Shown here: in pieces, positions 44,827-48,529 of the stretch | Numbering within the stretch: the stretch's first letter is position 1 | How the letters are laid out: the number at the start of each line of letters is the position of its first letter | Assembly: GCA_026984045.1 (NCBI GenBank) | Contig: JALSSV010000082.1 | Span: 1 to 64,000, forward strand | Source: Chromatiales bacterium | GTDB lineage: Bacteria; Pseudomonadota; Gammaproteobacteria; UBA6429; Thiohalophilaceae | Direction: 5' to 3' | Length of the DNA stretch: 64,000 bases | Translations under genes and position numbers: made by a program | Notes under the pieces: model-generated | What the model saw: only the letters and a program-made list of their open reading frames with translations | Told to the model about the DNA's origin: nothing | Database searches by the model: none

Positions 44827-45801
44827 TCATTTTTCGAGTTCGTATTTGCGGGTGGGACGTTTCTCCAGGGTCCATTCGTGCATGGAGCCGTCGTAGAGCT
44901 TCGTGTTCCTGTTGCCAAACAGCTCGTGCCAGATGAACCAGCCGCCGGAAGCGAGATGGCCGCTGTTGCAGTAGGTGATGGTGGGCTTGCCGGGCTCGAG
45001 GCCCAGCCCCCTGGCCAGTTGCTTCAGATCGGCCACCGGCAGGAACTTCGCCGGCAGGCGGGGCCGGGTCATGATGTCGTTGCTGTAGATCCGGGCGCCT
45101 GGAATGTGGCCCTCGGCATATACGTAGGATTTGCGATAGACGCCCAGGTACTGGGGCAGCGGCCGGTTGTCCACAAGCTGGGCATTGCCCTGTTTCACCG
45201 CCCTGGCCACGTCGTCCGAGGAGGCGAAGATTTCCTTGCGCTCGGCGGTGGCCACCCAGTCGCCCTTCGTCGCCCGGGGCATGCTGGTCTCGACCTCGTG
45301 GCCGGCGGCGATCCAGGCGGCCAGCCCGCCGTTGAGGATGGCCATGTCGTCGGTGCCATAGTATTTGAGCTGCCAGTAGAGGCGGGTGGCCATGGTCATG
45401 TCGCCGTTGTGCTGGCCACGGGAGGTAATGACCAGCGGCTTGCCCTTGGGCACGCCGAAGGACTGCATGATCTTCTCGAAGGCCGCCTTGTCGAGAATCA
45501 TCTTCTCGACCTTGCGGCCATCCTCCATGCGGGTGCCGCGGATCTTCCTGTAGTCGATCCAGATGGCGCCGGGAATGCGGCCGTTGGCCTGCACCAGTAC
45601 CCGCTTGCCGGTCTTGCGATCCTTCACGAAGCGCGGCGGCTGGGTGAAACTGCGCGGATTGACCCGCACGTCGAGCACCACCACCTGGTCGCGGTTGGCC
45701 GCAAGCCAGGCGGCATCCACCAGCGGACCGGGCACGGTTTTCGCCACGGCCAGCCACGGCAGCAGCAACAGGGTCAGCAACCATCCTGTGCGGTATTTCA
45801 T
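44827..45801 (-). CDS. Exported rhodanese (sulfurtransferase)
   Basis: The 324-aa protein has a signal peptide (about residues 1-20, ending AVA) and two rhodanese domains. The N-terminal domain has no catalytic Cys (Ser127 in VITSRGQ). The C-terminal domain has Cys278 in [10 protein letters not shown], so that domain is the active one. Exported rhodaneses transfer sulfane sulfur in the periplasm. A perfect AAGGAGGTGTG ribosome-binding site precedes the ATG. The start is one base after the upstream stop. It belongs to the YedE/Cys-repeat cluster. Confidence 0.92.
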
Positions 45802-45802
45802 G

Positions 45803-46468
45803 TCACACCTCCTTCGCGGTTGAGGGGGAGCGCGACGGCGCGTCCGCTCCCGATGGGGGTTCGCCGCTGTCGAGCCCGAGCCGTTCGGCCAGCGTGGCCA
45901 GCAGTTCCACCGGCTGGCGCGACAGCGTGTAGATGTTCCGATCCTGCCAGACCGTCTCCGGCGGCCGGCCTGCGCTCCGTTCGGCCAGACGGGCATCCCG
46001 CGCTTCGAGCAGGGCGGGCAGTTGCGGCCGCCACAGGCCCAGCATGTGGGTCAACCAGCGCTCGGTGAGCGAGAGGCCTTGTGCCTCCCCGGCGCAGGCC
46101 AGAAAGCGGTCGAGCGCGGTCAGCAGCTCGGTCGGTTCGCACCACGGCCCGGCCGTGACCCAGCGGTTGACGGTGAACCAGGCCTGCGGCTGGCCCTGCC
46201 CGTCGATGGACAGCGCCGCCAGATGCGACCACTCGCTCCCCGCCGGCAGGAACAGGTGGAAATGGCCATGTTCGTCGTCGCGCCGCCAGGGATCGGCGTG
46301 GCTGTGATAGTAGGCCCGCAATCCGCACTCACCGAAACGCAGCGCCCGGCGGGGATAGCGCACGCCCCGCACGATGCGCGGCGGCTCGCCCAGCAGGGGC
46401 AGCACCGGATTGGTGCGCTGCTCGCCCAGCGCCTGCAGATCGGCCAGCAGGGCGCGGGCCGGATCCAT
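45803..46468 (-). CDS. Hypothetical protein (221 aa) in the sulfur cluster
   Basis: I do not recognise this 221-aa protein with certainty. It has no signal peptide. Conserved-looking pieces are YYHSHADPWRRDDEHGHFHLF with a cluster of His, then HLAALSIDGQGQPQAWFTVN and RNIYTLSRQPVELLATL. The His-rich part could bind metal. The ATG overlaps the stop of the Cys-repeat gene as TGATG. The stop lies one base before the rhodanese start. It could belong to an uncharacterised family conserved with YedE; I cannot confirm this. Confidence 0.7.
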   Translation of the reverse strand: MDPARALLADLQALGEQRTNPVLPLLGEPPRIVRGVRYPRRALRFGECGLRAYYHSHADPWRRDDEHGHFHLFLPAGSEWSHLAALSIDGQGQPQAWFTVNRWVTAGPWCEPTELLTALDRFLACAGEAQGLSLTERWLTHMLGLWRPQLPALLEARDARLAERSAGRPPETVWQDRNIYTLSRQPVELLATLAERLGLDSGEPPSGADAPSRSPSTAKEV

Positions 46469-46854
46469 CAGCCCAGTCCGCAGGGCGCTTCGCTGGACGG
46501 TTCCGTGCCCAGTCCGCAGGGGGCTTCGCTGCCCGGTTCGGCATCCAGGCCGCAAGGGGTTTCGGTATTGCCCGGTTCCGTGCCCAGGCCACAGGGCGCC
46601 TCATCGCCACCCAGGCCACAGGGTGTCAAATCACAGGGCGAGCCGCCTTCCAGTCCGCAGGGGGTCTCGCCCAGCCCGCAGGGATTGCCCATGCCGCAGG
46701 GCACCGTCGTCTCACCGGCGGGAACATGCCGGGCGGTGGGCGCGGTCGGCGCCGGCAGCGGGTGGCGGGTGTAGTCGATGGCCACGGCCAGGGCCGCGAG
46801 GCTGAGGGCGGTGCCCATGACGAGGGCGCTCTGCTTGTGTTCGAGTCTGGCCAT
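46468..46854 (-). CDS. Membrane-anchored Cys-repeat protein (nine PCGLG-like repeats)
   Basis: The 128-aa protein has one hydrophobic helix (about 11-26), a Pro- and Thr-rich linker (about 27-50) and a tail with nine cysteines. Each Cys is in a Pro-Cys-Gly-Leu-Gly-like unit: PCGMG, PCGLG, PCGLE, PCDL, PCGLG, PCGLG, PCGLD, PCGLG, PCGLG. The Cys spacing is 5 to 13 residues. The orientation suggests the tail is periplasmic. The layout could bind metal or carry persulfide sulfur; this is inference. It lies between YedE (11 bases) and an overlapping unknown gene. No family is known to me. Confidence 0.75.
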   Translation of the reverse strand: MARLEHKQSALVMGTALSLAALAVAIDYTRHPLPAPTAPTARHVPAGETTVPCGMGNPCGLGETPCGLEGGSPCDLTPCGLGGDEAPCGLGTEPGNTETPCGLDAEPGSEAPCGLGTEPSSEAPCGLG

Positions 46855-46865
46855 GGCTTGCCGTA

Positions 46866-48056
46866 TCAGTAGGGTTTGTCCAGTCCGGCCCAGATCCGGA
46901 TGCGCACGCCGACCCAGGTGCCGGCGAAGCCGGCCAGCATCCACAGCCAGCCGTGCAGGCTGCCCGAGGCGATGCCGGCGAACATGCCGCCGATGTTGCA
47001 GCCAAAGGCCAGCCGGGCGCCATAGCCCAGCAGCAGACCGCCGACGACGGAAGCGGCCACCAGCCGCCAGTCGATCCGCTTGGCCGGGGCGAACTTGCCG
47101 GCCAGGGCCGCGGCGAGCATGGCGCCGAGAATGATTCCGAAGTCCATCACCGAGGTGATGTCGGCCAGTACCGGGCGCTGCAGCGCCCGGGCGGGATAAC
47201 CGGCGCTCCAGTAGGTCCAGGTGCTCACGTCACCCCCAAGGGCGGTATAGATCTTGGCGCCCCAGAGGCCGAAGGCGAAGGTGATGGACCAGGGATACCC
47301 GGCCACCAGCAGGGTCAGAAAACTGAACAGGGCCAAACCCGCCACCCCCCAGGCCCAGGACCACGGGCCGAAGACGAGCCGCTCGCTGAAGGGCCGGTCA
47401 TCGGTGAGGGTGAGTGGCTTGAGGCGGCCATGACGCCGCCATTCGAGGCTGCGCACGATCCAGAACAGGCCGGCCAGCACCGCGATCTGGATCGCCGCGG
47501 CCGGCAGCCAGCCGCCCAGCTCCCGTATCACCGACACCCGGCCGATGTTGGGCAGGCTGGTCCACCAGGGCAGGTGCGCGGTGCCGATGAGCGAGCCGAC
47601 GATGAAGAAGGCCAGGGTGATGAGCATGTTCACATGGCCCTGCCCCACCGTGAACAGGGTGCCCGAGCCGCAGCCGGCCCCCAGCTCCATGCCGATGCCG
47701 AACAGGAAGGCGCCCACCAGCACCGAGATCCCCACCGGCCCCATGGCACTGGTGGCCCGCAGGCCGGGGAAGACCTGGTCGATCACGGGAAAGAAAAGCG
47801 CGGTGGTGACCATGAACAGCAACAGTTGCGCGCGCAGGCCGGCACTCTCGCGGCGACGGATGAAATTGCGCCAGACGCTGGAGAAACCGAAAGCGGCGTG
47901 CAGGAGCGTTACCCCGAGTCCAACCGCGATCAGGAACAGCAGGGCATGACGGTTGTCCACCAGGCCTTGCAGTAGCAGGGCCAGGCCGAGAATGGCAAGG
48001 CTGGACGTCAATGCCACCGGATATTCCGTGCGCGGAGCCGGGATCGCCTGTGCCAT
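46866..48056 (-). CDS. YeeE/YedE family sulfur transporter
   Basis: The 396-aa protein has about ten hydrophobic helices and two inverted repeats. The repeats carry the family Cys motifs, GAGCGSGTLF near residue 129 and FGCNIGGMF near residue 345. Characterised YeeE members take up thiosulfate, passing it between conserved cysteines. The GGGGGAAAT site supports the ATG at 48056. It is the first gene in a cluster with the Cys-repeat protein, an unknown protein and an exported rhodanese, supporting a sulfur role. Confidence 0.9.
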   Translation of the reverse strand: MAQAIPAPRTEYPVALTSSLAILGLALLLQGLVDNRHALLFLIAVGLGVTLLHAAFGFSSVWRNFIRRRESAGLRAQLLLFMVTTALFFPVIDQVFPGLRATSAMGPVGISVLVGAFLFGIGMELGAGCGSGTLFTVGQGHVNMLITLAFFIVGSLIGTAHLPWWTSLPNIGRVSVIRELGGWLPAAAIQIAVLAGLFWIVRSLEWRRHGRLKPLTLTDDRPFSERLVFGPWSWAWGVAGLALFSFLTLLVAGYPWSITFAFGLWGAKIYTALGGDVSTWTYWSAGYPARALQRPVLADITSVMDFGIILGAMLAAALAGKFAPAKRIDWRLVAASVVGGLLLGYGARLAFGCNIGGMFAGIASGSLHGWLWMLAGFAGTWVGVRIRIWAGLDKPY

Positions 48057-48124: not shown

Positions 48125-48529
48125 TCACCGTCGCCGCAGGCGCGACAGATAGCCCTGCAACGCGGTGCGCTCGAAGCGTTCATGCTGCCAGGGCCGGTTG
48201 GCCAGGCGCATCCGGGAGCGGGGCCGCAGCACATAGCACCAGGCCGGCTTCTGCCGGCCGGCCGCGTCCCGCACCGTCACCTCGACCCGGCGGTAGAAGG
48301 CATCCTCGTAGCGATCGAGTCGGGCCAGTTCCCGGGGAGAAAGGCCCGTGTACAACACCCCTGCCACGCGGGCGTCACGCTCGGGCACCACCACCGGATA
48401 GACCCGGCCGCGCAGGCCGTAGCGGCGATAACCGGGCAACACCGCCGGCGCGTGCGGCGGCACGCGGCCGATCACGGCGCGCATCACCGCCGGGGTCATC
48501 AGGGTGCCATACACGAACAGATCCGCCAT
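48125..48529 (-). CDS. Gamma-glutamylcyclotransferase family protein
   Basis: The 134-aa protein is a GGCT-like (AIG2) fold. It has the substrate loop VYGTLMTP at the start and the catalytic Glu in RYEDAFYRR. A basic tail ends GYLSRLRRR. Members release 5-oxoproline from gamma-glutamyl peptides or act on other gamma-glutamyl amines. It may be the head of the YedE cluster, 68 bases upstream, but the link is weak. Confidence 0.88.
   Translation of the reverse strand: MADLFVYGTLMTPAVMRAVIGRVPPHAPAVLPGYRRYGLRGRVYPVVVPERDARVAGVLYTGLSPRELARLDRYEDAFYRRVEVTVRDAAGRQKPAWCYVLRPRSRMRLANRPWQHERFERTALQGYLSRLRRR

Follow-up and report, generated by a model that had tools for sequence, protein, structure and literature searches.

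The window (the whole 64,000-nucleotide stretch of Chromatiales bacterium DNA analyzed here) encodes a conserved gene set: a YeeE-type sulfur transporter, a membrane-anchored Cys-array protein, a DUF6969 protein and, as an optional fourth member, an exported rhodanese (Table 1). Beyond this set, DUF6969 pairs more widely with Cys-array proteins that are exported but built along unrelated lines. The array protein fits the defining features of no known family, and neither it nor DUF6969 has a described function. Our preferred reading, to which we give a probability of roughly 0.45, is that the array would be a tethered, multi-site carrier of sulfane sulfur serving YeeE, with DUF6969 acting on it before export.

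Table 1. Genes of the conserved set and the gene preceding it in the window
Feature	Position	Strand	Basis or remark
Gamma-glutamyl cyclotransferase-like gene	48125-48529	- (strand of YeeE)	Precedes YeeE
YeeE/YedE-family sulfur transporter	46866..48056	-	PF04143, E 1.1e-62; alignment to 6leo and 11 module YeeEs
Anchored Cys-array protein of 128 aa with nine PC units	46468..46854	-	Translated sequence, table of units, alignment of the family, model of low confidence
DUF6969 protein of 221 aa with motif YHxH...EHGHFHxF	45803..46468	-	PF22308, E 2.3e-40; AlphaFold pLDDT 91
Exported sulfurtransferase of rhodanese type (324 aa) with active-site-like loop CNSGHL	44827..45801	-	PF00581, E 7e-24; start and N-terminus

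Eleven nucleotides separate the YeeE stop codon from the array ATG, the array and DUF6969 genes overlap in a TGATG junction (-1), a single nucleotide lies between DUF6969 and the rhodanese, and 82 nt follow before TrpB2, all exactly as given in the original prediction. Profile matches were strong for YeeE (PF04143, 212.9 bits), for the rhodanese (PF00581, 84.6 bits; cut-off, 22.2), whose N-terminus is signal-peptide-like, and for the 221-aa protein (PF22308, 138.8 bits over nearly its full length; curated cut-off, 27). The last had been described as an unknown; it is a member of DUF6969, a family without assigned function, and is a more constant partner of Cys arrays than YeeE, occurring in many genomes with other arrays and without YeeE. 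TrpB2, which had been counted into the cluster, was dropped as a module member: it was absent from every other DUF6969 locus searched, and its adjacency to the rhodanese was kept in one same-family genome only (G010; L039).

Translation confirmed that the array protein combines one N-terminal helix with nine Pro-Cys (PC) units, eight PCG and one PCD, at residues 52, 58, 65, 73, 78, 87, 100, 112, and 124 (spacings of 6, 7, 8, 5, 9, 13, 12, and 12). When the 84-aa tail was shuffled 20,000 times, nine PC were never reached (maximum, 6). The gene contains imperfect repeats up to 36 nt long. Its Cys, Gly, and Leu codons differ synonymously from unit to unit while the residues stay nearly constant; this variation, together with retention of the motif in homologues, excludes the frame artifact that had been raised as an objection to the Cys tail. 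An AlphaFold model based on a shallow alignment placed a helix at about residues 3 to 30 and gave the tail a pLDDT below 50. With this helix as the presumed anchor, the positively charged N-terminus suggests that the tail lies outside the membrane. Searched against Pfam, the protein matched nothing, SoxY (PF13501) included, and a hit to NCBIfam Asr (11.5 bits; cut-off, 50) was set aside as a chance match.

Clear homologues of the array were found in seven same-family genomes, each adjoining a homologue of the 221-aa protein; in an eighth (G029), an array tail truncated at a contig end was found, again beside a 221-aa homologue. Across 26 collected sequences, the best conserved stretch was the anchor, LAAIAVAIDHTRHxLP, followed by a tail of 2 to 9 units with the consensus [SNAT]-P-C-[GSA]-[LM]-[GDE]. 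All but one of the 113 Cys residues in these sequences fell inside PC units (112/113), and unit totals were odd in 9 of the 26; the units therefore seem to act singly rather than as fixed disulfide or CxxC pairs. Two further, reduced homologues (L042 and L045) carry one PCSL and one other Cys each. Judged by sequence, the anchored arrays are a real family, and the prediction that it was undescribed held: a literature search, which covered few subscription papers, found no paper on DUF6969 or on the array repeat strings, nor any earlier report linking DUF6969 to Cys arrays.

The neighborhood of the anchored form was assessed in 13 named loci (L040 to L045, L047 to L050, L052, L072, and L083). 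YeeE lay directly upstream of the array in 12 (the exception being L041), and an exported rhodanese lay downstream in 8 of the 11 loci whose sequence reached far enough, which bears out the predicted link to both genes. In an alignment search of 369 gammaproteobacterial genomes, all 13 strong array hits (E below 1e-20) adjoined DUF6969 on the same contig; a further three, weak at E 1e-5 to 1e-4, came from genomes without DUF6969. DUF6969 itself was present in 30 of these 369 genomes and in 20 of 398 genomes of the phylum. Homologues lacking a link to YeeE or rhodanese would have counted against the original prediction: by this standard the anchored form is not refuted, but the wider class of arrays includes unlinked cases.

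Exported Cys arrays of other build beside DUF6969 included NPCAAK, NPCGPAKKK, GCCAAKK, and CGAK types. Strings seen were NPCGPANPCGPAKKK in Burkholderiales as well as NPCAAKNPCAAK, SARGGNPCAP, and CGAKCGAK; GCCAAKK occurred in Undibacterium, and GCCAAEGCC, lipoprotein-like, in Erythrobacter. In 50 DUF6969 loci, taken with flanks of about 1.5 kb from genomes that had been drawn evenly, a strict filter recovered an exported Cys-array open reading frame (ORF) in 26, whereas all 100 control windows, each 3.5 kb long and from 20 of the same genomes, gave none; 26/50 is a lower bound because the filter overlooks arrays with few units. By our own count, an array stood beside DUF6969 in about 66 of 80 named loci, a set biased toward the query. 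Since DUF6969, which occurs in hundreds of genomes, usually adjoins some exported Cys-repeat protein, they appear to be partners in an as yet undescribed system that deals with sulfur, or metal, beyond the cell membrane. Cys-repeat proteins can escape annotation because they are short and of low complexity. The two array classes are bridged by L083, L187, Ciceribacter thiooxidans, and Sinorhizobium medicae, in which the same kind of anchor is joined to units of PCAA or CAAKK type. On pSymA of S. medicae, consecutive genes encode a sulfurtransferase, YeeE, an anchored array, and DUF6969; the array ORF (L229 5496-5839; CP140906.1), which is unannotated and lies between YeeE and DUF6969, has the anchor AVAVDHYTHPVP and PCAA units.

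Some DUF6969 loci had other surroundings. A counter-case is Azospirillum sp. B510 (plasmid pAB510e; L226), where DUF6969 adjoins genes for lipid transport of the Mla type: the gap immediately upstream of it holds no Cys array, and neither array nor YeeE is nearby. On a Burkholderia glumae plasmid (L228), DUF6969 and a CGAK/CAPK array sit between CcdA, thioredoxin, and ECF sigma genes on one side and arsenosugar-biosynthesis genes on the other. DUF6969 also occurred, without a clear Cys array, on MAG contigs assigned to Chlamydiae and Simkaniaceae (L105 and L106), where transfer or binning error is possible.

In 61 aligned DUF6969 proteins, the invariant residues were Y54, H55, H57, E66, H67, G68, H69, F70, H71, F73, G92, and N101, and no Cys was invariant. 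The His residues suggest a multi-His site that probably binds metal. The AlphaFold model places the His motifs on strands and has a long helix at residues 134 to 165. A sequence search against the PDB gave no match; the best Foldseek E value was 1.2, and VIA-align reached a Z of at most 3.4 among the Foldseek candidates, with none of the weak rows (Plk4 polo box, p32, and FomD) convincing. With no signal peptide evident, DUF6969 is expected in the cytoplasm, as a probably cytoplasmic, His-rich protein; this placement, like the topology of the array, is read from the N-terminal sequence only. A role as a TsuB-like persulfide carrier is unlikely because the alignment has no invariant Cys.

Among the 80 named loci, YeeE-like genes lay near DUF6969 in 34 and rhodanese genes in 33. 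All 12 module YeeEs examined have Gly at the position of the first channel Cys of S. thermophila TsuA, and all 12 keep the residues matching TsuA Cys91 and Cys293 (Cys129 and Cys353 in the window), both reported to be indispensable in TsuA. The two other full-length YeeEs of the genome (L172 and L173) have NFCTMG, with Cys kept at the first channel position. The window YeeE does not classify as a TsuA-type thiosulfate transporter, given its Gly at that position and its score of 55 bits against the NCBIfam TsuA equivalog (cut-off, 400). Several arrays in DUF6969 loci were fused to other domains: with a rhodanese (L061 3254-3958) or a DSP-phosphatase/BLH-type domain (L112 3463-4359) in one ORF upstream of DUF6969, with a SoxA/TsdA-type cytochrome c (L116, above the cut-off; L058, just below), and with P460-like heme domains. 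Two SoxY proteins are encoded in the genome away from the locus.

As a sulfane-sulfur carrier, the array would be held in the membrane by its N-terminal helix and would extend its disordered tail into the periplasm, with each [SNAT]PC[GSA][LM] unit serving as a thiol site of its own. Sulfane sulfur would be placed on these thiols by the exported rhodanese, or elsewhere by SoxA/TsdA-like cytochromes, and the tethered array would pass it for import to YeeE, whose own first channel Cys is missing; many units in series would add local buffering capacity. DUF6969 would modify or protect the array in the cytoplasm before export through its multi-His, probably metal-binding site. In favor stand the linkage of the anchored form to YeeE and rhodanese, the pairing of DUF6969 with arrays, the fusions to rhodanese and to SoxA/TsdA-type cytochrome c, the missing first channel Cys of the module YeeEs, the single behavior of the units, and the two SoxY proteins of the genome. 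The periplasmic sulfur carrier of the original prediction remains the best single reading. Against it, Cys arrays bind soft metals as well as sulfur, some DUF6969 genes (Azospirillum sp. B510) lie near neither array nor YeeE, and sulfur genes do not always accompany the alphaproteobacterial arrays, which occur with ECF sigma factor/NrsF and P460-like proteins.

In a metal-centered rival, which we consider fairly unlikely, DUF6969 would be a metal-dependent enzyme modifying the Cys residues of an exported Cys-repeat precursor, in the manner of a RiPP without MNIO, and the product would buffer copper or another soft metal, as bufferins do. Bufferin and EGKCG/oxazolin precursors are likewise exported Cys-repeat proteins (PMC12452194) with a dedicated cytoplasmic partner, as proposed here, and the multi-His motif of DUF6969 would suit such an enzyme. 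In six alphaproteobacterial loci (L062, L071, L080, L088, L090, and L114), DUF6969 comes immediately after genes for an ECF sigma factor and NrsF; clusters of Buf1 bufferins are listed with the same regulatory pair (PMC12452194). P460-like proteins with long Cys arrays were seen in alphaproteobacterial DUF6969 loci (L062, L071, L073, L074, L080, L088, L090, L093, L113, L114, and L115), some with ECF sigma and NrsF; the longest array has 26 PC by simple count (L071). The bufferin and EGKCG systems use MNIO, however, whereas the partner here is DUF6969, and the array motif is PC[GSA][LM] rather than EGKCG. No MNIO (PF05114) was found in the locus or the whole genome, which is 99% complete and in which the positive control matched, so that an MNIO partnership in the source genome was ruled out. 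MNIO was encoded in only 1 of 130 DUF6969 loci, although somewhere in the genome in 17 of 29 such genomes; the sole case (L123 2745-3560; E 2.5e-109) adjoins an NPCAAQ array, and this pairing speaks for the metal reading. By its defining enzyme, the system is therefore no bufferin, but it could work like one. Also against the metal reading, the neighbors in gamma- and betaproteobacterial loci are sulfur rather than metal genes, and Cys modification of the array is hypothetical.

It is improbable that the array instead stores thiols in the periplasm, or works there in disulfide-redox chemistry, to shield YeeE and other envelope proteins from oxidants, with DUF6969 keeping it reduced or unfolded until export. 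Free thiols on a disordered tail would suit that role, as would the thioredoxin and CcdA genes near the B. glumae pair, and stress control would agree with the ECF/zf-HC2 or NrsF regulators; the units, however, are not spaced as CxxC redox pairs would be and often come in odd totals, and the specific linkage to YeeE and rhodanese would be left unexplained. Very improbable is an array without thiol function, its anchor a small accessory subunit of YeeE and its tail a drifting low-complexity repeat: widely varying unit number, the reduced L042 and L045, and the better conservation of the anchor would agree, but the near confinement of Cys to motif units and the recurrence of DUF6969 with differently built arrays lacking the window-type anchor do not.

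SoxT1A/SoxT1B and TsuA modules likewise encode a YeeE-family transporter with sulfur-transfer proteins, and periplasmic Cys proteins have been proposed as their sulfur presenters (PMC11582611). Those presenters (SoxYZ, SoxS, and DsbA-like proteins) are folded, whereas the set described here pairs a predicted disordered, tethered array with DUF6969; TsuA has the first channel Cys that the module YeeE lacks. The proposed role of the array resembles that of SoxYZ, in which sulfane sulfur is carried by a periplasmic Cys on a flexible segment. SoxY, however, has a folded domain that ends in just one carrier Cys, and the array protein has no Pfam match to it or to another family.

Tentatively, and with the odds somewhat against it, DUF6969 may be a metal-dependent enzyme of a new class, one modifying the Cys residues of exported repeat-Cys proteins, or loading them with sulfur, before secretion, in widespread, MNIO-independent Cys-array systems for sulfur or metal. 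With the present results, DUF6969, found in hundreds of proteobacterial loci, gains a likely partner in exported Cys-repeat proteins. How periplasmic sulfur is delivered to YeeE-type transporters is described as an unsolved question (PMC11582611), and a tethered array whose gene lies between those of the importer and the sulfurtransferase offers a direct candidate for presenting sulfane sulfur to YeeE; if the array is indeed a sulfane-sulfur carrier, the system would fairly be classed as a form of sulfur carrier.
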